Shown in pieces: positions 1,156 through 58,487 of a stretch of 64,000 nucleotides of DNA. The stretch's first letter is position 1; every line of letters starts with the position of its first letter. The position numbers and the translations under genes were made by a program. The stretch is from Panorpa germanica. Its lineage: Eukaryota; Arthropoda; Insecta; Mecoptera; Panorpidae. Under the pieces are notes generated by a model that saw only the letters and a list, made by a program, of their open reading frames with translations, made no database searches and had not been told where the DNA came from. The stretch lies in assembly GCA_963678705.1 (NCBI GenBank), contig OY783203.1, positions 23,728,535-23,792,534 of the forward strand, read 5' to 3'.

Positions 1156-1157
<2 letters not shown>

Positions 1158-1230: not shown

Positions 1231-1232
<2 letters not shown>

Positions 1233-3240: not shown

Positions 3241-3243
3241 ATA

Positions 3244-4316: not shown

Positions 4317-4321
<5 letters not shown>

Positions 4322-4778: not shown

Positions 4779-4800
4779 GCTGGTGTGACATGTAACTTAA

Positions 4801-36690: not shown

Positions 36691-36701
36691 GTGCAGTAAA
36701 A

Positions 36702-38120: not shown

Positions 38121-38535
38121 CCAGTTGAATTATTTAAAAATATAAAATCCTAAAATGTATTATATGAATATAATAAACAATTCATTTACATTTACATTTA
38201 CATTTAATTGTATGAATTATAGTATGAAAAGGAAAAAGTTCGAGTCTCGAAGCCAGAAAATTATCAGTAGCCTGTTGAATTATTTCAAAATATAAAATCC
38301 TAAAATGTATTATATGAATATAATAAACAATTCATTTACATTTACATTTACATTTAATTGTATGAATTATAGTATGAAAAGGAAAAAGTTCGAGTCTCGA
38401 AGCCAGAAAATTATCAGTAGGCTGTTGAATTGTTTCAAAATATAAAATCCTAAAATGTATATAATAAACAATTCATTTACATTTACATTTACATTTACAT
38501 TTACATTTAATTGTATGAATTATAGTGAAGTCATA
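38072..38535 (+). repeat. 150-bp tandem repeat, three units, duplicating a gene 3' end
   Basis: 'cgagtctcga' recurs at 38091, 38241 and 38391, an exact 150-bp spacing. Each unit carries the last codons of the exonuclease (SKSENYQ, then TAG), 'aaaatataaaatcctaaaatgtatt', an AATAAA signal and a (CATTTA)n run. The third unit lacks about 8 bp before AATAAA and has a longer CATTTA run. Confidence 0.93.
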
Positions 38536-40880: not shown

Positions 40881-42300
40881 TTAATTTATGTTTTTAACAG
40901 TGCTCAGCACTCGCTCCTAATCATCTCTAACCCCAGCGCCTCCGCTATTTACCACTTATACTTACCTTATCGTTCCCATTCTAACATTTTCGATTCATTC
41001 CTCCTGCACTGCCGCCAACACTTCAAGCACAACGGCACATATTCTGCAGCGCAATTACCACCTAAAGCCCTTAACCTCTATCGCCACTACTTCGAGCGCC
41101 ACCTCTACTTAGCCTACTGACCCCTAGCTCCCCCACCCCTTCGGTGAAGCACTTCCCATTTGTTGGTACCAAATATTCTCTCTACATTTTATAAATGATC
41201 GTTTATAGGTACTGTCCACATACTAAATTTCAAAATTGAGCTTTATTGCAAATCTGTTCTTGCCCCCACTTTCCCAAATTCGCGACGCTATTGAGGTTAA
41301 TTTTTTTTCGAAATTATGACAAATACGCACCAAATATCAATCCAATTCTACTACTGGATGTAATTTTAATATCTAACATCTAGAGAACTATTTTTCTTCT
41401 GTTTAGTATTCTACATGCAAAATATCATCGTTGTTCCTCTATATTGTACTTATATTCCGTTTATTATCCCATAGCCTAATGTTACACTTAATAAAATGTT
41501 GTTTCTTTATATTTTTATTATTAATATATCAATCTATATCTGCATACTAAATTTCAGCTTTGTATTTTAGCATTAGTACCCCCCACATACCTGTGCTACT
41601 GAACAAATTTTAGCACGGGGATCCATTTTGTTTGTATCTAAGAACATATATTCTAAACTATAGTCTTTCATCTCTATATGTTGGATATTTCTGGTTTTTG
41701 GCCACAGCGCCCGCCGCTTCTGGAAATTTGCAGTTTTCTATAATTTGTCTTTAATGACCCCCTACATAGGGCTATGTTCCAAATTTCAACGTTCTAGCTC
41801 TGTTGAGACATTTCAACAAAAAATTCGCGTCGCTACTACATTAAATTTTTTGTGTTCCAATTATTGGCAAGCATGCACAATTAGTGTCTCAATACATACC
41901 CCAAGTTTTAATATTCTTTGTTTAATATTTCTGGCTTTTACCGTCTCAACTCCAGCCGCCACTGGAAACTTGGGGTTGTCTATTTATTTCATATTAAATT
42001 TCAACTCTATTCTAACATTGCTACCAGAAATTCGCGCCGCTACTGAGCTCAAATTTCAAATCTCCAACTATTAGCAAATGTGCACAATAAATGATCTCAA
42101 TACACACATTAAATTTCAGTCTTTTATCTTTTCCAGTTCGTCAGATAATTGCAAAAGTATTTTTTCCAGAATAAGTTTTTCCACGGATATTCAGGAAAAA
42201 ATTCATGGACGTAGAAAGTCTTAGAAATTCGTCCTTTACAAAATATCAAAATTTAAAAAATTTGTAGGCACCGTTTAGAAGATACCATATACGATTTTGT
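40880..42300 (-). mobile_element. Helitron-like noncoding repeat, reverse orientation, next to the viral locus
   Basis: Read on the minus strand, the family modules appear in the usual order: 42200-42120 ('cgaattt..', 'gtgtgtattgagatca'), 'cagtagcggcgcgaatttct', 'ccagtggcggctgg', 'cggcgggcgctgtggcc', and at the far end 'gaggcgctggggttag..gatgattaggagcg' (40910-40950). The 3' hairpin is missing. The 5' side runs into the TA stretch where the Polinton-like element starts at 42324. Confidence 0.6.
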
Positions 42301-42304
42301 TACA

Positions 42305-42323
42305 GGATATATATATATATATA
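42305..42323. repeat. Short TA tract flanking the viral insertion (left)
   Basis: TA repeats immediately before the element's AGTAGT end. The last six bases (42318-42323, tatata) equal the six after the right end (57931-57936), compatible with a 6-bp Polinton target duplication but uninformative in a TA repeat. Confidence 0.6.
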
Positions 42324-42639
42324 AGTAGTATATAAAAGAGGGGACCTAACCCAAACTCAGATTTGATTGATTTGACACCTAAAATTTACCAAATTGTTAT
42401 ATATAACCAAATATTTTGAAAATATTAAATATTTATAAAAAATTGCAAAAATTGTTATATATAACCAAATATTTTAAAAATATTAAATATTTTTTAAAAT
42501 TTACAATAATTAATAATATTTATCAAAATATTGACATATATTTAGACTTCTAGAGATTCTGCATTATAGTGCTCTAAAAGTGATAATATATCATGTTTTA
42601 CCATATTCACAAAATACTGAATAATTTTTTTTCTATTAA
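42324..42639 (+). repeat. Terminal region of copy A (inverted repeat end and leader of polB)
   Basis: It starts AGTAGTATATAAAAGAGGGG. The same sequence ends copy B (56664-56979, inverted) and copy C (57615-57930, inverted). At least one substitution distinguishes C near 57679 (42575 in A). It includes the subterminal tandem repeat and, just before polB, a T-rich run ending TTAAATG. Confidence 0.85.
42391..42505 (+). repeat. Subterminal 58-bp tandem repeat, two units (copy A)
   Basis: Two units begin 'aaattgttatatataaccaa' at 42391 and 42449. Each unit includes self-complementary TTATATATAA and AAATATTT cores. Equivalent units lie at about 56798-56912 (B) and 57749-57863 (C). The position next to the terminus suggests a replication or packaging function, which is inference. 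Confidence 0.85.
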
Positions 42640-45600
42640 ATGGATTATATAAGAAACCAATTTCAAACTCAAACTATGATCCAATTAAAACAATATTGTA
42701 GAGATAATAAAATTCGAGGAGTATCTCAGTTAAGAAAAGCACAATTAATTAATACAATAATGAGATATATTAATAATACTAGAACAGAAGAGTATATACC
42801 ACCATTCCAAAATGTTGATATCCCATTTACAATAGAAAAACCATATTTACCCCCATTTCGAAGTATCAAAGAGGATGATGAAGATATATTTCCCAAACCA
42901 ACAGATTTTGAAAAGAATTTAGAAAGGAAGAGATTAATTAAAGAATTAGAATTAAAACCAAATAGAGCGTTTAATGGAATAATAAGTGATAAATATTTTA
43001 TTTCAAAAAATAATGAAGATATTAATATACATTTTGAAGAAATTAGAAAACCATTAACGAATTATATAAAATTTCAAATTGAAAAATATAAATATTTAAA
43101 GTTTAAACTTTCTACTTTTATTGAGTATGTAGAATTAAATCAAGATGGAGAAGAAGTAAATACACATACAAATAAATTTAGTACTGACATTATAGAAATT
43201 TCAAGTTATGTAAAAGATATTCATAAATTAATTAAAGTTATTGAAGATATAATTGACAATAAATTTGATCAATGGACTGAAAAGAACTCTAAATATAGAT
43301 TTAAACAAGTAAAATATTCTGTTTTATATAGAGATAAATTTCAACCAATAAAAGGTGGATCATATATTGATTTACCACAATATATTAAAAATAAAAAATG
43401 TTGTATAAATGTAAAAAATATTAGAACTAGACAATTTAAGTGTAAGGAAATGGAAGATAATAGATGTTTTGAATATGCTTTAGAAAGTATACTAAATCCA
43501 GTAGATAGACATAATGATAGACCATCAAAATATAATATAACAAGATATGAGGAATTAGAAATGGAATATCCCCTTGCTTTATCTCAAGACATTATTGAAA
43601 AATATGAACAATTTTTAAATATTTCAATTAATTTATATGAATTAATAAAAATGGGAAGAGAAGAAGAAGAACAAATAATATTAGGCTATAGAAGTAAGAA
43701 TATTTCTAATGATAAAACACATGTTAATTTATTAGTCCTTAGTGAATTGATTAATGATGATGGTGATTTAACTTATCATTTTGTTGGTATAAAAAATTTA
43801 AGTAGTTTAATAAAAGGTAAAATTCATCATTGTAATATTCGTTTTTATATTTGTAATAAATGTAGTAAGAGATTTAAAACTGTTATACAATATAATACTC
43901 ATACAAAAATTTGTGGAATCTCAACTAGCAATATAATTATGCCAGCTGAAAAAACCTACAAATTATTTTATAAATCTAATGGAGCAGAAATATATCACCC
44001 TTATTTTACAACATTAGATTTTGAATGTACATTATCTAAAGATTTTCCCTCAGATAAAATAAATAATAAAAAAATTATTTCTAAACACATTCCAAATAGT
44101 TATTGTTTTACTACAAATGAAAAAACTATTTTGAGAAGAGAAAAAGACTCTAATATATTAATGAAAACATTTAATAACGATTTAACAGATTTGGCAAAAA
44201 ATTATTACAAAATAAAGAAAATAAATGAACCTATGAAATGGAATGAAGAAGATATAAAATTATTTGAATCACAAACAAATTGTCACATTTGTGGTAAAGA
44301 TTTTGAAGGTCTTCCTTCTAATAAAGTTTGGGATCATGATCACATAACTGGTAAATTTAGAGGTGCCGCACATAAATCTTGTAATTTAAATTTAAAATTA
44401 CCCAATTTTGTACCCATTGGAATACATAATATAAAATATGATTCAAAAATATTTATTGAATGGATTTTAAAATTGAGCAAAGAAGCTGAAAATATTAAAA
44501 TACTTGCTGATACAACTGAAAATTATAAATATTTATCAAAACGAGTTTTGGTAAATGAATATGAAACAAAACAAGATTCAATATATTGCTCAAATTGTAA
44601 AATATCAAGAAAAGGTGAAAACCTATTTGAAAAATGTACTAAATGTGAAGGTATAACAAAACTTGAAGTGTGTGGAGAAAATAAAATTAAATGTTTAAAA
44701 TGTCTAAATATCTATAAAACTGCTAAGCAACTCTGCGAATCAGAAACAGAATCTCTTATAGATCTCTCCGAAGGAGAATCTCTTATAAAACTCTTTGAAG
44801 GAAAATCTCTTACAGAGCTCTTTGAAGGAGAATCTCCTATAGAATGTAAAAATGATAGTTGCACATATAAATGGGAAAAACTTAGAATAACACCAAAAGG
44901 AACAATAATACAAAGTTTTATGGAAATAAGATTTATTGATACATTAGCATTTATGGGTGTTTCATTAGATAAAGCAATTAAAAATTTATTAAATATTAAC
45001 TCTGGATATTGTTATAAATGTAAGAAACAACGAGAATTAAAAAATCCTATACTACTTTGCAAGACTCCAGAGGGTATAATAGCATATGATGATTGTGAAT
45101 ATTGTAATACTAAAATTGAAAAAATATGTGATTATAGTTCTTTTAAATATTGTAATGAAAGATATAAAAATTATTCATTAGAAGGAAAAGCTTTCTTATT
45201 ACAAAAAGGAGTTTATCCATATGAATGGGTTGATGATTATAAAAAGTTCGATGCATTAAATTTACCAGATATTAAAGAATTTTATTCCAATTTAAATTGT
45301 AAAACAATAACTGATAAACAATATAAATTTGCCAAAGACTTTTGGAAACATTTTAATATTGATACTTTTGGTGAATATCATGATAGATATTTAAGATTAG
45401 ATAGTATATTATTATATGATGTATTTAATAATTTTAGAGATATGTGTTATAAGGAATATCAATTAGATCCAGTTTATTTTATGAGTGCTCCACATTTAGC
45501 TAACTCAGCTTCATTAAAATATACCAAACAAACATTAGAATTATATCAAGATCAAGAAATGTATGAATTTACTGAAAAAGGTATTCGCGGTGGAATTAGT

Positions 45601-47034
45601 ATGATATCAAATAATTATGCTTTATCAAATAATTGTTATTTCTATGATGAAAAGTATGAGAAAGTTATCAAATTATCAAAAGAAAAAGCTGAAGAAAATG
45701 GTATATATAATTCAAAAAAAAATTTAAGTTATATAATGTATTTAGACGCTAATAATTTATATGGTTGGGCAATGTCTCAAAAACTACCAGTATCTAATCA
45801 TGAATGGCTGTCAAACGAAGAAATTCAAGATTTAAAAAAAAATAAAAATATAATGAGCATCGATGATGAGGGGGACATAGGATATATATTAGATGTTAAT
45901 TTAGGAATTCCAAAAGAATTACATGATAAATTTGATGATTATGCATTAGCTCCAGAACACTATTCTCCAAAATATGATGAATTATCAGAATATCAAAAAC
46001 AAATGATTGATATTGGATTAGGATCAAAACCATCAAAAGAGAATAAAAAATTAATGTGCACATTATACAATAAAAAAAATTATATTATAGATTATAGAAT
46101 ATTAAAAGAATATATAAGACAAGGTGCTAAATTATTTAATATTAATAAAGGTATTAAATATATACAAAAAGCTTGGTTAAAACCATATATTGATAAAAAT
46201 ACTAAATTACGACAAAATGCTAAAAATGATTTTGAAAAAGATTTCTTTAAATTAATGAATAATAGTGTATATGGAAAACAAATGGAAAACGTTAGAAATA
46301 GATTAAATGTAAAATTAATTAAATCTGAAGAAGCTATGCAAAAAATGATAAATTCAAATCATTATCAAGACAGAAGTATATTAAATGAAGATACTGTCCT
46401 CATGTATGGAAAAAAAGTTTATGTTAAATTAAATAAACCTATATTTGGTGGATTTACTATACTTGAACTATCAAAATTATTAATGTATAAATTTTATTAT
46501 AACTATTTAAAACCTAAATATGGTGATAAAGTTAAACTATTAAGCACTGACACAGATTCCTTTATCATACATGTAGAAACAGACGATTTTTATGAAGATA
46601 TAAAAAATAATATTGAATATTTTGATACAAGTGATTATCCAGATGATCATCCTAATAATATACCTCAAAAAAATAAAAAAATTCCAGGATTATTTAAAGA
46701 TGAATATAATGGTATTCCAATTAGAGAATATTGTGGATTACGATCAAAAATGTATGCGTTTAGAACTGATAATCATGAGAAGAAAATATGTAAAGGAATT
46801 AAAAAATTTAATATTATGAAAATGACATTTGATAAATATAAAGATTGTCTATTTGAACAAAAAAGGACAATTGAATCTAGTTATAGTATAAGATCATTTA
46901 AGCTACAATTATATACTATTCAAGAAGAAAAAATTGGATTAAGTCCTTATGATGATAAAAAATATTTAATTGATAAATTTAATAGACTATCATATGGTCA
47001 TAAAAATATTGATGAATTTTTCTATAATAAATGA
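42640..47034 (+). CDS. polB: Protein-primed type B DNA polymerase with embedded endonuclease VII domain (copy A)
   Basis: 1464 residues, intact. Residues 13-42 look like a SAP motif. An ordered N-terminal region (DNRCFEYALESILN) is followed by a C2H2 finger (C..C then H....C, about 405-428). The exonuclease I motif LDFEC has Asp460. An HNH/endonuclease VII insertion starts at Cys548 with DHDH at 565-568; the exonuclease II motif HNIKYD is at 596-601. Polymerase motif A has D1036-ANNLY, motif B NNSVYG around 1208, and motif C DTDS at 1304-1307. Several CxxC pairs lie between 660 and 850. Residues 704-736 are a repeat of 9-residue units (ESLIDLSEG type). The gene replicates the element's DNA by protein priming, by family knowledge. 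The start has TTAAATG context and the stop overlaps the next gene by ATGA. Confidence 0.95.
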   Translation: MDYIRNQFQTQTMIQLKQYCRDNKIRGVSQLRKAQLINTIMRYINNTRTEEYIPPFQNVDIPFTIEKPYLPPFRSIKEDDEDIFPKPTDFEKNLERKRLIKELELKPNRAFNGIISDKYFISKNNEDINIHFEEIRKPLTNYIKFQIEKYKYLKFKLSTFIEYVELNQDGEEVNTHTNKFSTDIIEISSYVKDIHKLIKVIEDIIDNKFDQWTEKNSKYRFKQVKYSVLYRDKFQPIKGGSYIDLPQYIKNKKCCINVKNIRTRQFKCKEMEDNRCFEYALESILNPVDRHNDRPSKYNITRYEELEMEYPLALSQDIIEKYEQFLNISINLYELIKMGREEEEQIILGYRSKNISNDKTHVNLLVLSELINDDGDLTYHFVGIKNLSSLIKGKIHHCNIRFYICNKCSKRFKTVIQYNTHTKICGISTSNIIMPAEKTYKLFYKSNGAEIYHPYFTTLDFECTLSKDFPSDKINNKKIISKHIPNSYCFTTNEKTILRREKDSNILMKTFNNDLTDLAKNYYKIKKINEPMKWNEEDIKLFESQTNCHICGKDFEGLPSNKVWDHDHITGKFRGAAHKSCNLNLKLPNFVPIGIHNIKYDSKIFIEWILKLSKEAENIKILADTTENYKYLSKRVLVNEYETKQDSIYCSNCKISRKGENLFEKCTKCEGITKLEVCGENKIKCLKCLNIYKTAKQLCESETESLIDLSEGESLIKLFEGKSLTELFEGESPIECKNDSCTYKWEKLRITPKGTIIQSFMEIRFIDTLAFMGVSLDKAIKNLLNINSGYCYKCKKQRELKNPILLCKTPEGIIAYDDCEYCNTKIEKICDYSSFKYCNERYKNYSLEGKAFLLQKGVYPYEWVDDYKKFDALNLPDIKEFYSNLNCKTITDKQYKFAKDFWKHFNIDTFGEYHDRYLRLDSILLYDVFNNFRDMCYKEYQLDPVYFMSAPHLANSASLKYTKQTLELYQDQEMYEFTEKGIRGGISMISNNYALSNNCYFYDEKYEKVIKLSKEKAEENGIYNSKKNLSYIMYLDANNLYGWAMSQKLPVSNHEWLSNEEIQDLKKNKNIMSIDDEGDIGYILDVNLGIPKELHDKFDDYALAPEHYSPKYDELSEYQKQMIDIGLGSKPSKENKKLMCTLYNKKNYIIDYRILKEYIRQGAKLFNINKGIKYIQKAWLKPYIDKNTKLRQNAKNDFEKDFFKLMNNSVYGKQMENVRNRLNVKLIKSEEAMQKMINSNHYQDRSILNEDTVLMYGKKVYVKLNKPIFGGFTILELSKLLMYKFYYNYLKPKYGDKVKLLSTDTDSFIIHVETDDFYEDIKNNIEYFDTSDYPDDHPNNIPQKNKKIPGLFKDEYNGIPIREYCGLRSKMYAFRTDNHEKKICKGIKKFNIMKMTFDKYKDCLFEQKRTIESSYSIRSFKLQLYTIQEEKIGLSPYDDKKYLIDKFNRLSYGHKNIDEFFYNK
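44749..44847 (+). repeat. 27-bp in-frame repeat inside polB (copy A)
   Basis: Three full and one partial 27-bp units encode ESLIDLSEG, ESLIKLFEG, KSLTELFEG and ESPIEC. They contain 'ctccgaaggag' and 'ctctttgaagga' words also found in and between the other genes of the element. Copy B holds the same at 54456-54554. Confidence 0.9.
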
Positions 47035-47498
47035 ACGTCTCTCTTTCAAAGCTCTCCAAAATAGATACATATTCGTCCGAAGGAGATACTACTAGTGTAG
47101 ATATTGTTTCACAACGCTCCGAAGGAGATACTCTTTCAGAGCTTTGTAAAACAGAATCCCTTTCAAAGCTCTCCAAAATAGAATCTCTTTCAAAGCTTTC
47201 CAGAGAAGAATTAATAAACAAATTGAATAACATTAATAATCTTTATAATAATTTCATAAATTTGTTAGAGTTAGAATTAAATATACCATATCTCATTATG
47301 AATGCAAAAATGATAACATCAAAATATGGAGATAGAATAATTTTAACTCTTGAAAATAAGAAGAAATTGAGTTTACCAGAAAAATATAATAAAATAATTG
47401 ATAATCCAGATGATTTAAAATTATTGAAAATAATATACAAAGGTAAAACTATTATGAATGATAAATACGAAAAACATAACATTACTTTTAGTCAATAA
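47031..47498 (+). CDS. Putative DNA-binding small protein with repeat-derived N terminus (copy A)
   Basis: 155 residues; the start overlaps the polB stop (ATGA). Residues 1-62 are low complexity (SLSKLSKI, SQRSEGDTLSEL) and are written by the short palindromic DNA repeats of this element. The C-terminal 90 residues look folded: NIPYLIMNAKMITSKYGDRI, then ILTLENKKKLSLPEKYNKII. Similar 'TKYG...LP.RY' proteins accompany PolB in related arthropod and cnidarian elements as I recall, where a single-strand DNA-binding OB fold seems plausible. That function is inference. Confidence 0.75.
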   Translation: MNVSLSKLSKIDTYSSEGDTTSVDIVSQRSEGDTLSELCKTESLSKLSKIESLSKLSREELINKLNNINNLYNNFINLLELELNIPYLIMNAKMITSKYGDRIILTLENKKKLSLPEKYNKIIDNPDDLKLLKIIYKGKTIMNDKYEKHNITFSQ

Positions 47499-47520
47499 AA
47501 AAAAATATTTTTTATAATAA

Positions 47521-47973
47521 ATGAATCTCTTTCAGAGCTCTCCAAAGGAGATTATCTCCTCCAAAACATATATTGAAAAACGAATGTATGTATATAGAAA
47601 AAGTTATAATTATTATCAAAAAATTGATATTGGTTTAACAATTAGTAAAGTATTATTTAGTGCATCTGGATTCTCCTTCGGAGCACTACCAAGTGGATTA
47701 CCAGATTTAATTTTAATACCATTAGCAGCATTAGGTTTAGGTGGAGTAATAATTGAAATTTTAGATAAAAAAATTCAAATTAAGGAAAAAATGTCTGAGT
47801 ATAAAGTGGCCTATAAATTTTATAATCAAATGTTAACACAAATAAAAGCAAATATAATAAATGAAAATGATGTTTATATTAAAGAAGCAGAATTTATTGA
47901 AAATCTTAAATTTTTTCCATTGGATAAATATTTAAAGAAAGCAAATATAAATGGAATACCATCTTCAAAATAG
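47521..47973 (+). CDS. Small membrane-associated protein of unknown function (copy A)
   Basis: 150 residues, intact, starting 22 bp after the previous stop in a TAAATG context. A hydrophobic Gly/Ala-rich region at residues 46-80 (LFSASGFSFGALPSG, LILIPLAALGLGGVIIEIL) suggests one or two membrane segments, flanked by basic, tyrosine-rich N- and helical C-terminal parts. Part of the hydrophobic region (ASGFSFGALPSG) is written by a 'ctccttcggag' repeat. Proteins of this layout occur beside PolB in related elements from memory, with no known role. Confidence 0.7.
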   Translation: MNLFQSSPKEIISSKTYIEKRMYVYRKSYNYYQKIDIGLTISKVLFSASGFSFGALPSGLPDLILIPLAALGLGGVIIEILDKKIQIKEKMSEYKVAYKFYNQMLTQIKANIINENDVYIKEAEFIENLKFFPLDKYLKKANINGIPSSK

Positions 47974-48035
47974 AATCCTTCAGAGCGCTCTTTCAGAGAG
48001 AAGCTCTTTCAGGGAGCATTTATTTATTGTAATAA

Positions 48036-48257
48036 ATGGATATCTCAGAACGAGTATATTGTGTAAAATGCAAAAAGAAAACAGATAATATTGATATTAA
48101 AACAATTAAAACAGAAAATAATAAATACAGATTATCAGCAAAATGTAAAATTTGTAATAGCAATAAAAGTCAATTTATTAAGAATCTCCTTCGGAGCTCT
48201 GCAAAACAGAATATCTTTCAGAGCCCTACAAAAAAAAAAACTCTGAAGTTCTTTTAA
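48036..48257 (+). CDS. Cys4 zinc-ribbon protein (DUF5679-like), apparent N-terminal part of the integrase (copy A)
   Basis: 73 residues with YCVKCKKKT near the start and CKICNSNK around residue 45: two CxxC pairs making a zinc ribbon like DUF5679. The frame runs through a run of eleven A (48230-48240) and stops at 48255-48257. The integrase frame (-1) is open from that A-run onward with no ATG before the first catalytic Asp. In related elements as I recall, ribbon and integrase are one protein. So this is likely the N-terminal zinc domain of the integrase, reached by slippage, or a frame broken before duplication. Confidence 0.8.
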   Translation: MDISERVYCVKCKKKTDNIDIKTIKTENNKYRLSAKCKICNSNKSQFIKNLLRSSAKQNIFQSPTKKKTLKFF

Positions 48258-49060
48258 AAGAAGCAATTGAATTACATAAACCAGTTATTAAAAAATTTAG
48301 ACGAAGAAAAGTTATAACACTTGGAATAGATGATTTATGGGCTGCAGATTTAGTTATAATGAGAAAATATGCTGATGATAATAATGGTTATAAATATATA
48401 TTAAATGTTATTGATACTTTTTCAAAATTTGTTTGGTCTAAACCATTAAAATATAAAACAGGAAAATCAGTTGCTAAAGCTTTTGAATCATTATTACATA
48501 ATAGAAAACCAAAATTATTACATGTTGATAAAGGCTTAGAATTTGTTAATAAAGATTTTATAAAAATTTTGGATAAATATAATATAAAAATGTATCACAC
48601 TGAAAATGAAGAAAAATCTACAATTATTGAAAGATTTAATGGTACTTTGAATCGTAAGATGAAACCCTATTTTACAGCAAATAATAATTTTAAATGGATA
48701 AATATATTAGATACTTTAATAAAAGAGTATAATTATAAAGATTATCATCGAACTATCAAAATGAAACCCTTTGAAGTTAATAAAGATAATGAAAAATATA
48801 TTTTGAATACTGTATACTCTCCCAATAGGGATAGATTTTATGAAAATATCTCAAAATTCAAAATTGGTGATAAAGTTAGAATAACAAAATTCAAATCAAC
48901 ATTTTCAAATAAATATGAAACTAATTGGACAAATGAAATATTTAAAATTCATAAAATTTTATATACCAATCCAATAACATATAAAATAAAAGATTTAAAT
49001 GGTGAAGAAGTCATTGGTGGATTTTATAATAAGGAACTTCAAAAATGTAAGATTTGCTAA
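48242..49060 (+). CDS. int: Retroviral-type (rve) integrase of Polinton type (copy A)
   Basis: Inserts the element into host DNA. The frame is open from the A-run. The first ATG (48359) lies after the first catalytic Asp (codon 48347-48349 in LWAADL), so a start there would give a dead enzyme. The second Asp is at 48527 (HVDKGLEF) and the Glu at 48629 (STIIERFNGTLNR); D-E spacing is 33 residues. A C-terminal chromo/SH3-like tail follows (FKIGDKVRI, then ...LNGEEVIGGFYNKEL). Feature start 48242 marks the frame, not a proven start codon. Confidence 0.9.
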   Translation, partial: SEVLLKEAIELHKPVIKKFRRRKVITLGIDDLWAADLVIMRKYADDNNGYKYILNVIDTFSKFVWSKPLKYKTGKSVAKAFESLLHNRKPKLLHVDKGLEFVNKDFIKILDKYNIKMYHTENEEKSTIIERFNGTLNRKMKPYFTANNNFKWINILDTLIKEYNYKDYHRTIKMKPFEVNKDNEKYILNTVYSPNRDRFYENISKFKIGDKVRITKFKSTFSNKYETNWTNEIFKIHKILYTNPITYKIKDLNGEEVIGGFYNKELQKCKIC

Positions 49061-49095
49061 AGACTGCGAAGGCTTTCTTTTTTTATAAATAAATA

Positions 49096-49625
49096 ATGGG
49101 GAAATTTATTAAAATTATTGGAAACAAATTGAGATTTGAAAATCCAATTAATCTTGATCCACAGAAAAGATATAAAATTGGAGTATCTGGTTTTAAATAT
49201 GATTTAATTGATATAAATAATTTTACAAAGTTCAAATTTCCAAAATTTAGTATAGATATTATTTGGGAAACTATATATGGATATTATTCATTAACATGTA
49301 ATATAAATGCAAATATATATTCTATTAATGATTTAGAAACAAAAATTATACAATATTTAACTCGTATGAGTTTTATAATAAAAACTAAAGAATTTAAAAT
49401 TAAAAATAATCAACATGTATTTGATTTTTCTAATAAAAATGCTGATGATTTTTTAAATTATATAACTTTTATACCAGAAGGAGAAATACCAAAAGGAAAA
49501 AGTTTTCATAGTACTCAAACATTTTTTGATCATGGTTCATTTGTAATGGATGTTATTAATCAAAATAAAGTGAAAATTAATAGTCCAGTTAAATTAATAT
49601 TTTCAAAGGAAATTAATAATATAAT
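49096..49625 (+). CDS. Truncated putative minor structural protein (copy A side)
   Basis: About 176 codons lie on the palindrome arm; the open frame then runs on to 49743 through the loop and back along copy B by chance. It begins MGKFIKIIGNKLRFENPINL, with YKIGVSGFKYDLIDINNFTK, LTCNINANIYSINDLETKII and INNII at the break. Proteins starting with such 'L...Y.IGL..F...N.I.NI' and 'Y.I.DIE..I' blocks lie beside integrase or capsid genes in related elements, perhaps penton-like, which is inference. The natural 3' end is missing. Confidence 0.65.
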
Positions 49626-49677
49626 TTTATTTTGTGGAATAATTCCAACTCCAATTATATTATTATTTCCAAATCCT
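49626..49677. other. 52-nt loop of the palindrome (strand-switch junction)
   Basis: The only unpaired sequence between the two 7.3-kb arms. On the minus strand it extends the truncated gene naturally (GFGNNNIIGVGIIPQNK after INNII), so it belongs to the copy B side. It contains 'aataataatataat', repeating the arm end, a likely microhomology for the switch. Confidence 0.85.
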
Positions 49678-50207
49678 ATTATATTATTAATTTCCTTTGA
49701 AAATATTAATTTAACTGGACTATTAATTTTCACTTTATTTTGATTAATAACATCCATTACAAATGAACCATGATCAAAAAATGTTTGAGTACTATGAAAA
49801 CTTTTTCCTTTTGGTATTTCTCCTTCTGGTATAAAAGTTATATAATTTAAAAAATCATCAGCATTTTTATTAGAAAAATCAAATACATGTTGATTATTTT
49901 TAATTTTAAATTCTTTAGTTTTTATTATAAAACTCATACGAGTTAAATATTGTATAATTTTTGTTTCTAAATCATTAATAGAATATATATTTGCATTTAT
50001 ATTACATGTTAATGAATAATATCCATATATAGTTTCCCAAATAATATCTATACTAAATTTTGGAAATTTGAACTTTGTAAAATTATTTATATCAATTAAA
50101 TCATATTTAAAACCAGATACTCCAATTTTATATCTTTTCTGTGGATCAAGATTAATTGGATTTTCAAATCTCAATTTGTTTCCAATAATTTTAATAAATT
50201 TCCCCAT
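49678..50207 (-). CDS. Truncated putative minor structural protein (copy B side)
   Basis: Identical in translation to copy A up to INNII. On this side the loop adds about 17 plausible codons before the frame turns back into the palindrome and ends at 49560. This is the longer authentic stretch of the gene in the window. Confidence 0.65.
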
Positions 50208-50242
50208 TATTTATTTATAAAAAAAGAAAGCCTTCGCAGTCT

Positions 50243-51061
50243 TTAGCAAATCTTACATTTTTGAAGTTCCTTATTATAAAATCCACCAATGACTTCTTCA
50301 CCATTTAAATCTTTTATTTTATATGTTATTGGATTGGTATATAAAATTTTATGAATTTTAAATATTTCATTTGTCCAATTAGTTTCATATTTATTTGAAA
50401 ATGTTGATTTGAATTTTGTTATTCTAACTTTATCACCAATTTTGAATTTTGAGATATTTTCATAAAATCTATCCCTATTGGGAGAGTATACAGTATTCAA
50501 AATATATTTTTCATTATCTTTATTAACTTCAAAGGGTTTCATTTTGATAGTTCGATGATAATCTTTATAATTATACTCTTTTATTAAAGTATCTAATATA
50601 TTTATCCATTTAAAATTATTATTTGCTGTAAAATAGGGTTTCATCTTACGATTCAAAGTACCATTAAATCTTTCAATAATTGTAGATTTTTCTTCATTTT
50701 CAGTGTGATACATTTTTATATTATATTTATCCAAAATTTTTATAAAATCTTTATTAACAAATTCTAAGCCTTTATCAACATGTAATAATTTTGGTTTTCT
50801 ATTATGTAATAATGATTCAAAAGCTTTAGCAACTGATTTTCCTGTTTTATATTTTAATGGTTTAGACCAAACAAATTTTGAAAAAGTATCAATAACATTT
50901 AATATATATTTATAACCATTATTATCATCAGCATATTTTCTCATTATAACTAAATCTGCAGCCCATAAATCATCTATTCCAAGTGTTATAACTTTTCTTC
51001 GTCTAAATTTTTTAATAACTGGTTTATGTAATTCAATTGCTTCTTTTAAAAGAACTTCAGA
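50243..51061 (-). CDS. int: Retroviral-type integrase (copy B)
   Basis: Inverted duplicate of 48242-49060 with the same translation from the ATG at 50944 (233 residues), again with the first catalytic Asp upstream of that ATG (50954-50956). It carries the same relation to the A-run (51063-51073 on this strand), so the frame break predates the duplication or is functional. Confidence 0.9.
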   Translation of the reverse strand, partial: SEVLLKEAIELHKPVIKKFRRRKVITLGIDDLWAADLVIMRKYADDNNGYKYILNVIDTFSKFVWSKPLKYKTGKSVAKAFESLLHNRKPKLLHVDKGLEFVNKDFIKILDKYNIKMYHTENEEKSTIIERFNGTLNRKMKPYFTANNNFKWINILDTLIKEYNYKDYHRTIKMKPFEVNKDNEKYILNTVYSPNRDRFYENISKFKIGDKVRITKFKSTFSNKYETNWTNEIFKIHKILYTNPITYKIKDLNGEEVIGGFYNKELQKCKIC

Positions 51062-51267
51062 GTTTTTTTTTTTGTAGGGCTCTGAAAGATATTCTGTTTT
51101 GCAGAGCTCCGAAGGAGATTCTTAATAAATTGACTTTTATTGCTATTACAAATTTTACATTTTGCTGATAATCTGTATTTATTATTTTCTGTTTTAATTG
51201 TTTTAATATCAATATTATCTGTTTTCTTTTTGCATTTTACACAATATACTCGTTCTGAGATATCCAT
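51046..51267 (-). CDS. Cys4 zinc-ribbon protein (copy B)
   Basis: Inverted duplicate of 48036-48257, same 73 residues, reading through the same run of eleven A into a -1-frame stop. Confidence 0.8.
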   Translation of the reverse strand: MDISERVYCVKCKKKTDNIDIKTIKTENNKYRLSAKCKICNSNKSQFIKNLLRSSAKQNIFQSPTKKKTLKFF

Positions 51268-51329
51268 TTATTACAATAAATAAATGCTCCCTGAAAGAGC
51301 TTCTCTCTGAAAGAGCGCTCTGAAGGATT

Positions 51330-51782
51330 CTATTTTGAAGATGGTATTCCATTTATATTTGCTTTCTTTAAATATTTATCCAATGGAAAAAATTTAAGAT
51401 TTTCAATAAATTCTGCTTCTTTAATATAAACATCATTTTCATTTATTATATTTGCTTTTATTTGTGTTAACATTTGATTATAAAATTTATAGGCCACTTT
51501 ATACTCAGACATTTTTTCCTTAATTTGAATTTTTTTATCTAAAATTTCAATTATTACTCCACCTAAACCTAATGCTGCTAATGGTATTAAAATTAAATCT
51601 GGTAATCCACTTGGTAGTGCTCCGAAGGAGAATCCAGATGCACTAAATAATACTTTACTAATTGTTAAACCAATATCAATTTTTTGATAATAATTATAAC
51701 TTTTTCTATATACATACATTCGTTTTTCAATATATGTTTTGGAGGAGATAATCTCCTTTGGAGAGCTCTGAAAGAGATTCAT
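51330..51782 (-). CDS. Small membrane-associated protein (copy B)
   Basis: Inverted duplicate of 47521-47973, 150 residues, same translation. TAAATG start context. Confidence 0.7.
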   Translation of the reverse strand: MNLFQSSPKEIISSKTYIEKRMYVYRKSYNYYQKIDIGLTISKVLFSASGFSFGALPSGLPDLILIPLAALGLGGVIIEILDKKIQIKEKMSEYKVAYKFYNQMLTQIKANIINENDVYIKEAEFIENLKFFPLDKYLKKANINGIPSSK

Positions 51783-51804
51783 TTATTATAAAAAATATTT
51801 TTTT

Positions 51805-52272
51805 TTATTGACTAAAAGTAATGTTATGTTTTTCGTATTTATCATTCATAATAGTTTTACCTTTGTATATTATTTTCAATAATTTTAAATCATCTGGATT
51901 ATCAATTATTTTATTATATTTTTCTGGTAAACTCAATTTCTTCTTATTTTCAAGAGTTAAAATTATTCTATCTCCATATTTTGATGTTATCATTTTTGCA
52001 TTCATAATGAGATATGGTATATTTAATTCTAACTCTAACAAATTTATGAAATTATTATAAAGATTATTAATGTTATTCAATTTGTTTATTAATTCTTCTC
52101 TGGAAAGCTTTGAAAGAGATTCTATTTTGGAGAGCTTTGAAAGGGATTCTGTTTTACAAAGCTCTGAAAGAGTATCTCCTTCGGAGCGTTGTGAAACAAT
52201 ATCTACACTAGTAGTATCTCCTTCGGACGAATATGTATCTATTTTGGAGAGCTTTGAAAGAGAGACGTTCAT
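51805..52272 (-). CDS. Putative DNA-binding small protein (copy B)
   Basis: Inverted duplicate of 47031-47498, 155 residues, same translation, overlapping the polB stop by ATGA. Confidence 0.75.
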   Translation of the reverse strand: MNVSLSKLSKIDTYSSEGDTTSVDIVSQRSEGDTLSELCKTESLSKLSKIESLSKLSREELINKLNNINNLYNNFINLLELELNIPYLIMNAKMITSKYGDRIILTLENKKKLSLPEKYNKIIDNPDDLKLLKIIYKGKTIMNDKYEKHNITFSQ

Positions 52273-55200
52273 TTATTATAGAAAAATTCATCAATATTTT
52301 TATGACCATATGATAGTCTATTAAATTTATCAATTAAATATTTTTTATCATCATAAGGACTTAATCCAATTTTTTCTTCTTGAATAGTATATAATTGTAG
52401 CTTAAATGATCTTATACTATAACTAGATTCAATTGTCCTTTTTTGTTCAAATAGACAATCTTTATATTTATCAAATGTCATTTTCATAATATTAAATTTT
52501 TTAATTCCTTTACATATTTTCTTCTCATGATTATCAGTTCTAAACGCATACATTTTTGATCGTAATCCACAATATTCTCTAATTGGAATACCATTATATT
52601 CATCTTTAAATAATCCTGGAATTTTTTTATTTTTTTGAGGTATATTATTAGGATGATCATCTGGATAATCACTTGTATCAAAATATTCAATATTATTTTT
52701 TATATCTTCATAAAAATCGTCTGTTTCTACATGTATGATAAAGGAATCTGTGTCAGTGCTTAATAGTTTAACTTTATCACCATATTTAGGTTTTAAATAG
52801 TTATAATAAAATTTATACATTAATAATTTTGATAGTTCAAGTATAGTAAATCCACCAAATATAGGTTTATTTAATTTAACATAAACTTTTTTTCCATACA
52901 TGAGGACAGTATCTTCATTTAATATACTTCTGTCTTGATAATGATTTGAATTTATCATTTTTTGCATAGCTTCTTCAGATTTAATTAATTTTACATTTAA
53001 TCTATTTCTAACGTTTTCCATTTGTTTTCCATATACACTATTATTCATTAATTTAAAGAAATCTTTTTCAAAATCATTTTTAGCATTTTGTCGTAATTTA
53101 GTATTTTTATCAATATATGGTTTTAACCAAGCTTTTTGTATATATTTAATACCTTTATTAATATTAAATAATTTAGCACCTTGTCTTATATATTCTTTTA
53201 ATATTCTATAATCTATAATATAATTTTTTTTATTGTATAATGTGCACATTAATTTTTTATTCTCTTTTGATGGTTTTGATCCTAATCCAATATCAATCAT
53301 TTGTTTTTGATATTCTGATAATTCATCATATTTTGGAGAATAGTGTTCTGGAGCTAATGCATAATCATCAAATTTATCATGTAATTCTTTTGGAATTCCT
53401 AAATTAACATCTAATATATATCCTATGTCCCCCTCATCATCGATGCTCATTATATTTTTATTTTTTTTTAAATCTTGAATTTCTTCGTTTGACAGCCATT
53501 CATGATTAGATACTGGTAGTTTTTGAGACATTGCCCAACCATATAAATTATTAGCGTCTAAATACATTATATAACTTAAATTTTTTTTTGAATTATATAT
53601 ACCATTTTCTTCAGCTTTTTCTTTTGATAATTTGATAACTTTCTCATACTTTTCATCATAGAAATAACAATTATTTGATAAAGCATAATTATTTGATATC
53701 ATACTAATTCCACCGCGAATACCTTCTTCAGTAAATTCATACATTTCTTGATCTTGATATAATTCTAATGTTTGTTTGGTATATTTTAATGAAGCTGAGT
53801 TAGCTAAATGTGGAGCACTCATAAAATAAACTGGATCTAATTGATATTCCTTATAACACATATCTCTAAAATTATTAAATACATCATATAATAATATACT
53901 ATCTAATCTTAAATATCTATCATGATATTCACCAAAAGTATCAATATTAAAATGTTTCCAAAAGTCTTTGGCAAATTTATATTGTTTATCAGTTATTGTT
54001 TTACAATTTAAATTGGAATAAAATTCTTTAATATCTGGTAAATTTAATGCATCGAACTTTTTATAATCATCAACCCATTCATATGGATAAACTCCTTTTT
54101 GTAATAAGAAAGCTTTTCCTTCTAATGAATAATTTTTATATCTTTCATTAAAATATTTAAAAGAACTATAATCACATATTTTTTCAATTTTAGTATTACA
54201 ATATTCACAATCATCATATGCTATTATACCCTCTGGAGTCTTGCAAAGTAGTATAGGATTTTTTAATTCTCGTTGTTTCTTACATTTATAACAATATCCA
54301 GAGTTAATATTTAATAAATTTTTAATTGCTTTATCTAATGAAACACCCATAAATGCTAATGTATCAATAAATCTTATTTCCATAAAACTTTGTATTATTG
54401 TTCCTTTTGGTGTTATTCTAAGTTTTTCCCATTTATATGTGCAACTATCATTTTTACATTCTATAGGAGATTCTCCTTCAAAGAGCTCTGTAAGAGATTT
54501 TCCTTCAAAGAGTTTTATAAGAGATTCTCCTTCGGAGAGATCTATAAGAGATTCTGTTTCTGATTCGCAGAGTTGCTTAGCAGTTTTATAGATATTTAGA
54601 CATTTTAAACATTTAATTTTATTTTCTCCACACACTTCAAGTTTTGTTATACCTTCACATTTAGTACATTTTTCAAATAGGTTTTCACCTTTTCTTGATA
54701 TTTTACAATTTGAGCAATATATTGAATCTTGTTTTGTTTCATATTCATTTACCAAAACTCGTTTTGATAAATATTTATAATTTTCAGTTGTATCAGCAAG
54801 TATTTTAATATTTTCAGCTTCTTTGCTCAATTTTAAAATCCATTCAATAAATATTTTCGAATCATATTTTATATTATGTATTCCAATGGGTACAAAATTG
54901 GGTAATTTTAAATTTAAATTACAAGATTTATGTGCGGCACCTCTAAATTTACCAGTTATGTGATCATGATCCCAAACTTTATTAGAAGGAAGACCTTCAA
55001 AATCTTTACCACAAATGTGACAATTTGTTTGTGATTCAAATAATTTTATATCTTCTTCATTCCATTTCATAGGTTCATTTATTTTCTTTATTTTGTAATA
55101 ATTTTTTGCCAAATCTGTTAAATCGTTATTAAATGTTTTCATTAATATATTAGAGTCTTTTTCTCTTCTCAAAATAGTTTTTTCATTTGTAGTAAAACAA

Positions 55201-56663
55201 TAACTATTTGGAATGTGTTTAGAAATAATTTTTTTATTATTTATTTTATCTGAGGGAAAATCTTTAGATAATGTACATTCAAAATCTAATGTTGTAAAAT
55301 AAGGGTGATATATTTCTGCTCCATTAGATTTATAAAATAATTTGTAGGTTTTTTCAGCTGGCATAATTATATTGCTAGTTGAGATTCCACAAATTTTTGT
55401 ATGAGTATTATATTGTATAACAGTTTTAAATCTCTTACTACATTTATTACAAATATAAAAACGAATATTACAATGATGAATTTTACCTTTTATTAAACTA
55501 CTTAAATTTTTTATACCAACAAAATGATAAGTTAAATCACCATCATCATTAATCAATTCACTAAGGACTAATAAATTAACATGTGTTTTATCATTAGAAA
55601 TATTCTTACTTCTATAGCCTAATATTATTTGTTCTTCTTCTTCTCTTCCCATTTTTATTAATTCATATAAATTAATTGAAATATTTAAAAATTGTTCATA
55701 TTTTTCAATAATGTCTTGAGATAAAGCAAGGGGATATTCCATTTCTAATTCCTCATATCTTGTTATATTATATTTTGATGGTCTATCATTATGTCTATCT
55801 ACTGGATTTAGTATACTTTCTAAAGCATATTCAAAACATCTATTATCTTCCATTTCCTTACACTTAAATTGTCTAGTTCTAATATTTTTTACATTTATAC
55901 AACATTTTTTATTTTTAATATATTGTGGTAAATCAATATATGATCCACCTTTTATTGGTTGAAATTTATCTCTATATAAAACAGAATATTTTACTTGTTT
56001 AAATCTATATTTAGAGTTCTTTTCAGTCCATTGATCAAATTTATTGTCAATTATATCTTCAATAACTTTAATTAATTTATGAATATCTTTTACATAACTT
56101 GAAATTTCTATAATGTCAGTACTAAATTTATTTTTATGTGTATTTACTTCTTCTCCATCTTGATTTAATTCTACATACTCAATAAAAGTAGAAAGTTTAA
56201 ACTTTAAATATTTATATTTTTCAATTTGAAATTTTATATAATTCGTTAATGGTTTTCTAATTTCTTCAAAATGTATATTAATATCTTCATTATTTTTTGA
56301 AATAAAATATTTATCACTTATTATTCCATTAAACGCTCTATTTGGTTTTAATTCTAATTCTTTAATTAATCTCTTCCTTTCTAAATTCTTTTCAAAATCT
56401 GTTGGTTTGGGAAATATATCTTCATCATCCTCTTTGATACTTCGAAATGGGGGTAAATATGGTTTTTCTATTGTAAATGGGATATCAACATTTTGGAATG
56501 GTGGTATATACTCTTCTGTTCTAGTATTATTAATATATCTCATTATTGTATTAATTAATTGTGCTTTTCTTAACTGAGATACTCCTCGAATTTTATTATC
56601 TCTACAATATTGTTTTAATTGGATCATAGTTTGAGTTTGAAATTGGTTTCTTATATAATCCAT
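52269..56663 (-). CDS. polB: Protein-primed type B DNA polymerase (copy B)
   Basis: Inverted duplicate of 42640-47034, 1464 residues, intact. I found three residue differences from copy A: Thr to Lys in a NTH(T/K)NKFS segment, Cys to Phe in KY(C/F)NERY, and Lys to Glu in FTE(K/E)GIRGG. All exonuclease, HNH and polymerase motifs are conserved. No indel separates the copies. Confidence 0.95.
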   Translation of the reverse strand: MDYIRNQFQTQTMIQLKQYCRDNKIRGVSQLRKAQLINTIMRYINNTRTEEYIPPFQNVDIPFTIEKPYLPPFRSIKEDDEDIFPKPTDFEKNLERKRLIKELELKPNRAFNGIISDKYFISKNNEDINIHFEEIRKPLTNYIKFQIEKYKYLKFKLSTFIEYVELNQDGEEVNTHKNKFSTDIIEISSYVKDIHKLIKVIEDIIDNKFDQWTEKNSKYRFKQVKYSVLYRDKFQPIKGGSYIDLPQYIKNKKCCINVKNIRTRQFKCKEMEDNRCFEYALESILNPVDRHNDRPSKYNITRYEELEMEYPLALSQDIIEKYEQFLNISINLYELIKMGREEEEQIILGYRSKNISNDKTHVNLLVLSELINDDGDLTYHFVGIKNLSSLIKGKIHHCNIRFYICNKCSKRFKTVIQYNTHTKICGISTSNIIMPAEKTYKLFYKSNGAEIYHPYFTTLDFECTLSKDFPSDKINNKKIISKHIPNSYCFTTNEKTILRREKDSNILMKTFNNDLTDLAKNYYKIKKINEPMKWNEEDIKLFESQTNCHICGKDFEGLPSNKVWDHDHITGKFRGAAHKSCNLNLKLPNFVPIGIHNIKYDSKIFIEWILKLSKEAENIKILADTTENYKYLSKRVLVNEYETKQDSIYCSNCKISRKGENLFEKCTKCEGITKLEVCGENKIKCLKCLNIYKTAKQLCESETESLIDLSEGESLIKLFEGKSLTELFEGESPIECKNDSCTYKWEKLRITPKGTIIQSFMEIRFIDTLAFMGVSLDKAIKNLLNINSGYCYKCKKQRELKNPILLCKTPEGIIAYDDCEYCNTKIEKICDYSSFKYFNERYKNYSLEGKAFLLQKGVYPYEWVDDYKKFDALNLPDIKEFYSNLNCKTITDKQYKFAKDFWKHFNIDTFGEYHDRYLRLDSILLYDVFNNFRDMCYKEYQLDPVYFMSAPHLANSASLKYTKQTLELYQDQEMYEFTEEGIRGGISMISNNYALSNNCYFYDEKYEKVIKLSKEKAEENGIYNSKKNLSYIMYLDANNLYGWAMSQKLPVSNHEWLSNEEIQDLKKNKNIMSIDDEGDIGYILDVNLGIPKELHDKFDDYALAPEHYSPKYDELSEYQKQMIDIGLGSKPSKENKKLMCTLYNKKNYIIDYRILKEYIRQGAKLFNINKGIKYIQKAWLKPYIDKNTKLRQNAKNDFEKDFFKLMNNSVYGKQMENVRNRLNVKLIKSEEAMQKMINSNHYQDRSILNEDTVLMYGKKVYVKLNKPIFGGFTILELSKLLMYKFYYNYLKPKYGDKVKLLSTDTDSFIIHVETDDFYEDIKNNIEYFDTSDYPDDHPNNIPQKNKKIPGLFKDEYNGIPIREYCGLRSKMYAFRTDNHEKKICKGIKKFNIMKMTFDKYKDCLFEQKRTIESSYSIRSFKLQLYTIQEEKIGLSPYDDKKYLIDKFNRLSYGHKNIDEFFYNK

Positions 56664-56797
56664 TTAATAGAAAAAAAATTATTCAGTATTTTGTGAATAT
56701 GGTAAAACATGATATATTATCACTTTTAGAGCACTATAATGCAGAATCTCTAGAAGTCTAAATATATGTCAATATTTTGATAAATATTATTAATTAT

Positions 56798-56912
56798 TGT
56801 AAATTTTAAAAAATATTTAATATTTTTAAAATATTTGGTTATATATAACAATTTTTGCAATTTTTTATAAATATTTAATATTTTCAAAATATTTGGTTAT
56901 ATATAACAATTT
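56798..56912 (-). repeat. Subterminal 58-bp tandem repeat (copy B)
   Basis: Inverted equivalent of 42391-42505. Confidence 0.85.
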
Positions 56913-56982
56913 GGTAAATTTTAGGTGTCAAATCAATCAAATCTGAGTTTGGGTTAGGTCCCCTCTTTTATATACTACTTCA

Positions 56983-57264
56983 TAAATTACAAGATTTATG
57001 TGCGGCACCTCTAAATTTACCAGTTATGTGATCATGATCCCAAACTTTATTAGAAGGAAGACCTTCAAAATCTTTACCACAAATGTGACAATTTGTTTGT
57101 GATTCAAATAATTTTATATCTTCTTCATTCCATTTCATAGGTTCATTTATTTTCTTTATTTTGTAATAATTTTTTGCCAAATCTGTTAAATCGTTATTAA
57201 ATGTTTTCATTAATATATTAGAGTCTTTTTCTCTTCTCAAAATAGTTTTTTCATTTGTAGTAAA
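56983..57264 (-). pseudogene. polB HNH segment in copy C
   Basis: Corresponds to 44108-44388 of copy A, with ExoI already lost. The HNH cysteines and DHDH residues are intact, but the segment is cut at HKSCNL by the junction with copy B. Confidence 0.85.
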
Positions 57265-57281
57265 CGTAAAGTAAACGTAGT

Positions 57282-57614
57282 AAACGCTCTATTTGGTTTT
57301 AATTCTAATTCTTTAATTAATCTCTTCCTTTCTAAATTCTTTTCAAAATCTGTTGGTTTGGGAAATATATCTTCATCATCCTCTTTGATACTTCGAAATG
57401 GGGGTAAATATGGTTTTTCTATTGTAAATGGGATATCAACATTTTGGAATGGTGGTATATACTCTTCTGTTCTAGTATTATTAATATATCTCATTATTGT
57501 ATTAATTAATTGTGCTTTTCTTAACTGAGATACTCCTCGAATTTTATTATCTCTACAATATTGTTTTAATTGGATCATAGTTTGAGTTTGAAATTGGTTT
57601 CTTATATAATCCAT
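57282..57614 (-). pseudogene. polB N-terminal 111 codons in copy C
   Basis: Same translation as copies A and B up to KPNRAF, then out of frame after the filler, ending at 57237. It contains the SAP-like motif. Confidence 0.85.
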
Positions 57615-57748
57615 TTAATAGAAAAAAAATTATTCAGTATTTTGTGAATATGGTAAAACATGATATATTATCACTTTTAAAGCACTATAATGCAGAATCT
57701 CTAGAAGTCTAAATATATGTCAATATTTTGATAAATATTATTAATTAT

Positions 57749-57863
57749 TGTAAATTTTAAAAAATATTTAATATTTTTAAAATATTTGGTTATATATAAC
57801 AATTTTTGCAATTTTTTATAAATATTTAATATTTTCAAAATATTTGGTTATATATAACAATTT
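57749..57863 (-). repeat. Subterminal 58-bp tandem repeat (copy C)
   Basis: Third instance of the two-unit repeat, inverted relative to copy A. Confidence 0.85.
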
Positions 57864-57928
57864 GGTAAATTTTAGGTGTCAAATCAATCAAATCTGAGTT
57901 TGGGTTAGGTCCCCTCTTTTATATACTA

Positions 57929-57930
<2 letters not shown>

Positions 57931-57985
<55 letters not shown>
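57931..57985. repeat. (TA)n tract flanking the viral insertion (right)
   Basis: About 55 bp of TA repeat directly after the ACTACT end of the element. Confidence 0.95.
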
Positions 57986-57988
<3 letters not shown>

Positions 57989-58009
57989 ATTATTAATTAT
58001 ATCCAATAA

Positions 58010-58310
58010 ACTTGAAAATGGTTCAAAGTTATATATCAGCTATAAGCATTTAATTAATACCATGAATGAGTCTGCGGAGGAAAGTATTCAATACACTAAA
58101 ATTTATTAAAACATGAAAAACCTCTATGGTGGGACAGCAATTGTAATAATATAGTTGCTAAAAGAAGATTAGCTCTATCTAAATTTAATAGAAATTCTAA
58201 TATGGAAAATTATCTAAATTTTTAAAAAGGAACAACCATACACACAAGAATAGTTTAGGAGAACAAGGAAGGAAGAAAAAACAAAAAGCTATCGTGTATT
58301 TATGTTGTAA
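58010..58310 (+). pseudogene. LINE fragment (endonuclease-RT linker)
   Basis: One frame reads ...KHEKPLWWDSNCNNIVAKRR and continues LALSKFNRNSNMENYLNF, then a frameshift. This is the P.WWD..C...I..R..A...F.R block between endonuclease and RT of Jockey/I-type LINEs. It differs from the LINE starting at 58.45 kb. Confidence 0.65.
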
Positions 58311-58487
58311 TAAATTTTGCTCCTGAAATTATTTTCAATTTATTAAATTTATTATACTAAATAAAAATTATTTATTTAATAAATACATTTATTTAATAAA
58401 TATAAAGGAGTTTAAAAATAATAAAGTGTAAAAACGAAGTAATAGATATTTTTTTTTTTATTAATTTGTGAAAGTGAGGTTATAATT

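Follow-up and report, generated by a model that had tools for sequence, protein, structure and literature searches.

How does one half of a mobile element come to stand in a chromosome facing its own mirror image, with the same outer terminus at both ends? The question is raised by a unit at positions 42324–57930 of a 64,000-nt stretch of Panorpa germanica DNA (the window, to which all coordinates refer), situated in the 48-Mb contig C21 of a genome of 464 Mb in 249 contigs. Positions called native are numbered from the left terminus of the intact element. An earlier note on this DNA had described the unit as an integrated, palindromic Polinton-like element of snap-back form.

Anatomy of the mirrored unit

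The core of the unit consists of two mirrored arms of 7,302 bp each, whose paired positions add up to a constant sum of 99303 and whose outer ends both bear the AGTAGT/ACTACT element terminus (Table 1). Alignment of one arm against the other finds no indels and four substitutions, at 43169/56134, 44445/54858, 45152/54151, and 45577/53726. The tail-to-tail arms, the 52-nt loop, the terminus at both ends, the constant sum, and the indel-free pairing described in the earlier note are all recovered in this alignment; the two copies are not identical, however, as the four differences attest. An indel-free inverted repeat of 7.3 kb is far beyond chance, and there is no ambiguous base (N) anywhere in the window. 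PolB (1464 aa), ORF2, ORF3, a 73-aa ORF, and the rve integrase are open in each arm.

A simple palindrome over the whole of 42324–57930, as had been claimed, is ruled out: the symmetry ends at 56979, and beyond it lies an appendage of 951 bp, so that the integrated unit is asymmetric (7,302 + 52 + 7,302 + 951 bp). The appendage is composed of TCA, a 282-nt piece of PolB that matches 54915–55196 at 100%, a 16-nt filler, and a third, 650-nt copy of the terminus with a single difference from both arms, at 57680. Read from its right end, the unit runs through native 1–650, filler, native 1784–2065, TCA, and native 1–7354, and then turns back from 7302 to 1. Because the appendage is present on one side, the unit needs further joins beyond one copy-back event.

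Table 1. Features of the mirrored unit and its immediate flanks, in window coordinates
Feature	Position	Strand	Remark
Left flank TATATA	42318–42323		End of (TA)n run; candidate 6-bp target duplication, matches 57931–57936
Left arm, native 1–7302, terminus to ORF5	42324–49625	+	
PolB ORF, 1464 aa, endonuclease VII-like domain	42640–47034	+	Open in both arms
ORF2, 155 aa, no assigned function	47031–47498	+	
ORF3, 150 aa, no assigned function	47521–47973	+	
ORF4, 73 aa, no assigned function	48036–48257	+	
Integrase (rve), 233 aa	48359–49060	+	PF00665 2.7e-10
ORF5, frame crosses loop into other arm	49096–49743	+	Native copies continue otherwise
TATAAT/ATTATA, 6-nt complementary stretch at switch point	49620–49625		
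52-nt loop, native sequence continuing right arm	49626–49677	-	39 other loci
Right arm, native 7302–1	49678–56979	-	
Right-arm integrase, protein identical to left copy	50243–50944	-	
Right-arm PolB ORF, 1464 aa, 3 residues unlike left copy	52269–56663	-	
TCA, 3 nt between right-arm terminus and internal piece	56980–56982		
282-nt PolB piece, native 1784–2065, oriented as right arm	56983–57264	-	Private variant native 1963
16-nt filler, GTAAACG-like repeats	57265–57280		
Third terminus copy, native 1–650, outer right end of unit	57281–57930	-	Private variants native 177, 252
Right flank (TA)n	57931–57985		

Elsewhere in the window, Sestrin exons are found at 16653–18049 (PF04636, 2.4e-17 and 5.5e-50); sestrins being animal genes, they indicate that the host is an animal. 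The interval 36690–38526 holds a Mutator-like transposase frame (PF20700, 1.2e-6) followed by an RNase T-like exonuclease frame (PF00929, 3.3e-5), as well as a 150-bp tandem array of three copies. Downstream of the unit, at 60593–62535, are non-LTR retrotransposon frames with a reverse transcriptase (3.2e-34) and an endonuclease-like match below the cut-off.

The Polinton family and its ordinary copies

The PolB ORF of the window contains an Endonuclease_7 domain (Pfam, 1.1e-6), and its protein gave no match to the Pfam DNA_pol_B_2 model at 0.1. Its last 585 aa (residues 880–1464) found relatives with E <= 0.001 in 5,377 of 7,991 scored proteins; one relative of this C-terminal portion (P0011), 53% identical to it, carries DNA_pol_B_2 at 1.3e-11. 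The ORF further displays DANNLYG, LMNNSVYGK, and TDTDS, which we take to be the named PolB motifs. By its relatives and motifs the ORF is a PolB, and protein priming is putative. Matches in PHROGs were to endonuclease VII, transposase, and families of unknown function. The PolB had no match among PDB sequences, a bZIP protein found one database hit that spans 19% of its length, a scan of viral contigs for the integrase returned four pattern matches with none confirmed, and Rfam and tRNA scans gave none.

The capsid side of the element was searched with Pfam in one native copy, on contig C8 (L009). It encodes a double jelly-roll capsid protein (4.2e-29) and an adenovirus-type protease (1.7e-4; 21.7 bits against a cut-off of 21.3), while an ATPase is represented by a weak, A32-like match below the cut-off (Pox_A32, 0.0044). 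Capsid, protease, and ATPase genes are absent from the window unit by Pfam and by reading of its ORFs. The capsid protein of the C8 copy has six database relatives, the best of which is 95% identical and lies on a 2,050-bp contig.

Three further observations concern gene content. At L009:5305–6840 the C8 copy carries a matrixin-type metalloprotease (PF00413, 1.5e-33) that also matches hemopexin and begins with a hydrophobic N-terminus; by BLAST, most of this region (about L009 5344–6392) is missing from the copies on C98, C147, C3, and C21, and it looks like an accessory gene gained or lost. A 504-aa frame at L009:1601–3115 contains a phospholipase A2-like domain (PF08398, 1.2e-13) and possibly encodes a minor virion protein; in parvoviruses, a phospholipase A2 resides in a minor virion protein. 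Within PolB, nine of 14 other copies have a 39-nt insertion at native 2750 (window 45073), which the window arms and the other five (C8, C147, C5, C3, and C1) lack.

Ordinary copies were sought with a 505-nt query spanning the fold, with 40 of 74 candidates scored; in this search, palindromes whose fold point lies outside the query are not recognizable as such. Among the candidates scored, only the window matched the whole query across the fold, on both strands. All 39 other loci read straight on through query positions 221–505 (window 49620–49904) and match query 1–226 or 6–226 on the opposite strand. Since these 39 loci read through the loop, the loop is native and forms a continuation of the right arm. 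Probes for the left border at 38 of them (one lies at a contig end) located the terminus in 30; the eight copies without it look truncated or diverged, to judge from their sequence, and some may be rearranged. When 17 of the 30 were followed rightward, 15 proved to have both termini and to measure 13,744 to 15,006 bp. The remaining two are the C21 copy at 36.69 Mb, with no right terminus within the 10 kb read, and the C3 copy at 18.77 Mb, a near-duplicate of another copy, whose right terminus was not found in the stretch probed. The earlier note had proposed looking in the same genome for full-length elements sharing the termini and for other palindromic copies: the former exist in the 15 two-ended copies, while no further palindrome across this fold appeared among the 40 of 74 candidates scored.

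The ordinary copies begin with AGTAGT and finish with ACTACT, and the terminal inverted repeat of the C8 copy is 321 bp long. A target duplication can be judged where both ends were read and the flank is other than TATATA, as is the case for 6 of the 15 copies. Five of these six show a 6-bp duplication (CACACC, GATATC, TACATA, TATGTA, and TGTATA). The nine other two-ended copies are inserted in (TA)n. Runs of (TA)n are a favored target, with a strong preference, since TATATA ends 18 of 30 left flanks. The window unit, too, is flanked by TATATA on both outer sides and sits within (TA)n, which fits a target duplication and, because of the (TA)n context, is not decisive. Two loci stand somewhat apart. 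The C9 copy (L025, L061) has mismatched flanks, AAATGT and TATATA, and may be a recombinant of two insertions. On C3, 65 kb separate the loci L007 and L008 (18.83 and 18.76 Mb), which show three mismatches in 3,285 positions and similar left flanks over the 40 nt compared; by sequence, the pair is likely a segmental duplication.

These same-genome copies, with their (AGT)2 ends, 321-bp TIR (C8 copy), 6-bp duplications, PolB, rve integrase, and a double jelly-roll capsid gene in the half missing from the palindrome, bear out the Polinton identity given in the earlier note. A linear mitochondrial or yeast plasmid is ruled out by the capsid gene, the integrase, and the chromosomal copies with target duplications. 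Vertebrate Mavericks have (AGT)2//(ACT)2 ends and 6-bp target duplications, according to the available part of PMC8097293, and carry two modules on different strands as a rule, with a one-strand case in X. tropicalis. Compared with the same portion of that account, the present family is alike in its ends, its duplications, and a TIR and total size within the published ranges; in the native copy read, it also has the PolB, the rve integrase, the double jelly-roll capsid, and the protease. It departs from the two-strand rule stated there: a single strand encodes both the PolB and integrase of the window arms and, apart from a 108-aa frame, the capsid-side genes as read in C8. The window copy itself differs from a Polinton/Maverick in comprising the PolB-integrase half only, twice and mirrored, together with a partial third terminus.

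The fold point and the probable common source of the pieces

Native copies read ...CACAAAATAAAATTATA, continuing into ORF5. In the window unit the sequence reverses at ATTATA, which can pair with a TATAAT separated from it by 52 nt, and the native sequence diverges right after ATTATA. Complementarity of at least 6 nt at a random snap-back point arose in 0.09% of 200,000 draws from this AT-rich element DNA. A 6-nt partner lies 20–200 nt upstream for about 13% of 5,000 3′ ends drawn at random, so suitable fold sites are not rare, and an unguided join is unlikely to land on one.

Nine substitutions are common to both arms and occur in no other copy read at the site concerned. They lie at native 177 (17 of 17 others differ), 252 (16 of 16), 1963 and 2731 (14 of 14 each), 3376 (all five ungapped copies differ, nine being gapped at the alignment end), and 4484, 4875, 5838, and 6710 (10 of 10 at each). 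The three that the appendage covers recur there as well: the third terminus copy carries 177 and 252, and the 282-nt piece carries 1963. Over native 701–3400, 8–10 alignment columns separate the arms from their nearest relatives among the other copies, and four separate the arms from each other; over native 3401–7302, the corresponding figures are 16 substitutions and none. The shared private variants argue for one source molecule behind all pieces, and the arms, the third copy, and the piece most likely derive from one genome or its direct descendants. It is possible that this source was a close relative among copies outside those read. The snap-back reading put forward in the earlier note gains strength from the native junction, the 6-nt complementarity, and the substitutions private to both arms.

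Each part also has changes of its own, at native 2829 in the left arm, at 846, 2122, and 3254 in the right arm, and at 251 in the third copy. All 14 other copies read there match the unchanged state at the four arm positions, as do 16 at position 251. Each part has thus mutated separately after the common origin, and PolB residues are altered by three of the four changes in the arms, as expected of decay without selection. With an insect-like mutation rate of 3e-9 per site and generation, the arm divergence of 4/7,302 (95% range 1.5e-4 to 1.4e-3 per site) corresponds to an age near 90,000 generations, with limits of 25,000 and 230,000. All four differences fall within native 846–3254, in the outer 3.3 kb, and none within 3401–7302, an arrangement with a chance of about 4%. 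This uneven spread could reflect later gene conversion between the arms, in which case the unit would be older than estimated.

Origin of the unit and its probable place among snap-back genomes

Long inverted repeats are a known trouble spot of genome assembly, and missed-adapter or chimeric reads, or two copies misjoined, might in principle have produced the mirror. Here, however, the point at which the mirror stops is no arbitrary one but the element terminus, and the two outer flanks are unlike each other; a hairpin read would have mirrored the adjoining host flank, whereas other element pieces follow the terminus. The own substitutions, one on the left and three on the right, at which 14 of 14 other copies agree with the opposite arm, occur without indels and mark the arms as separate DNA, and the nine shared private variants oppose a misjoin of two different copies among those read. 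By this evidence the palindrome is probably not an artefact, and we regard an assembly origin as very unlikely. A break in an integrated copy, followed by fold-back and fill-in by host repair, is more improbable still. Host repair can yield fold-back inversions with microhomology, but it would have mirrored the left host flank. Instead, the right arm goes no farther than the terminus, beyond which lie element pieces; mirrored host DNA as an extension of the arms is ruled out, none being present within 41000–59000.

A mirror that stops at the element terminus, and not in mirrored host DNA, is what a molecule with a free end at that point should give. Two independent side-by-side insertions are excluded because the inner terminus shows no target duplication (the left flank is TATATA, the six bases beyond 56979 are TCATAA) and because all pieces share the private variants. 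Two full-length copies from the same source might also have fused tail to tail, with a subsequent central deletion removing both capsid halves. The junction and its 6-nt overlap would be no different after such a course, the 52-nt loop would be left off-center, and joins of other types did occur in this unit, at the filler and at TCA. It takes two steps, however, where a snap-back yields a short loop in one, and its deletion ends must fall no more than 58 nt from mirror positions in halves of about 7.6 kb, for which the chance is about 1.5%. We therefore hold fusion with deletion to be unlikely, if the least so of these alternatives.

We consider it probable that the unit represents a defective Polinton (Maverick) genome that snapped back outside the chromosome, was end-joined to a deleted fragment, and integrated. 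A linear extrachromosomal copy would have been replicating from its left end when the new strand halted at native 7360. Its 3′ end, ATTATA, would have annealed to TATAAT on the same strand, looping out 52 nt, and a polymerase would then have run back to the 5′ end to give a hairpin. Replication of this hairpin from its terminus would produce a linear palindrome with the same terminus, and presumably also an origin, at both ends; it would hold two PolB and two integrase genes and have lost those for capsid, ATPase, and protease. One end may next have acquired a broken fragment of the same genome that carried an internal deletion (terminus 1–650, filler, 1784–2065); end joining is suggested by the look of the TCA junction and of the filler, with its GTAAACG-like repeats. 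We infer that the integrase finally used the two outer termini of the product to insert it into a (TA)n run. In an alternative order of events, the appendage would once have been on both ends and the left one lost. Against the snap-back course stand the single locus, the one-sided appendage, which a single copy-back leaves over, the target duplication blurred by (TA)n, and the commonness of suitable fold sites; no extrachromosomal form was seen.

By arm alignment, one end of the element is inverted and duplicated with its terminus at both ends, and the arms, traced to a single template by nine variants, meet at a short loop (52 nt) with a complementary switch point (6 nt). On this account the unit would be a snap-back defective viral genome, a known kind, here integrated and derived from a Polinton. 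Symmetric left-end defective genomes of adenoviruses, which are protein-primed linear dsDNA, are likewise inverted duplications of one end, and they are encapsidated, not integrated. Nothing direct on this adenovirus precedent was found in the open-licence papers searched. The nearest documented precedent, in the available part of PMC8235507, is found in the AAV snapback genomes (5′-SBG), which are symmetric or asymmetric, the asymmetric form holding a loop, and which are reported to replicate with Rep and helper functions; an end-joining origin is proposed by the authors. Both systems share a self-complementary genome from one end. The parvovirus forms come from single-virion genome analysis, whereas here the genome is integrated and the element encodes PolB and integrase. 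Among titles and the beginnings of abstracts in the open-licence literature, which lacks most subscription papers, no report of a palindromic or defective-interfering Polinton was found. The string “palindrom” occurs 0 times in PMC10120064 and PMC8097293, and palindromic elements are not mentioned in the accessible portion of PMC6431247.

Polinton particles or extracellular forms had not been observed, as stated in the available parts of PMC8097293 and PMC7805220, so a free replicating stage in animals has largely been deduced. The present locus, a single one, suggests that these elements generate and integrate defective genomes, as the earlier note had it. A bolder reading, to which we give little credence, is that the Polintons of this animal go through a replicating stage outside the chromosome and regularly throw off capsid-less snap-backs, which re-enter the chromosome because they have integrase sites at both ends and keep PolB and integrase; a fixed one, if transcription crosses the loop, would give a 7.3-kb hairpin RNA that silences the intact family and so act as a natural anti-Polinton locus arising from an error in the element’s own replication. 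Mu killer of maize, a plant transposon derivative with demonstrated silencing, is comparable in that a portion of a mobile element, duplicated in inverted orientation and fixed in the genome, can give rise to hairpin RNA; silencing by hairpin RNA from the window unit is, by comparison, putative. The mirror that ends at the element’s own terminus would be a physical trace of a free-ended intermediate, and the outer ends suggest that a duplicated left terminus suffices for integration. If this is true, defective genomes could be counted and dated with the unit as a search image, and the unit would also be a testable candidate locus for hairpin RNA.
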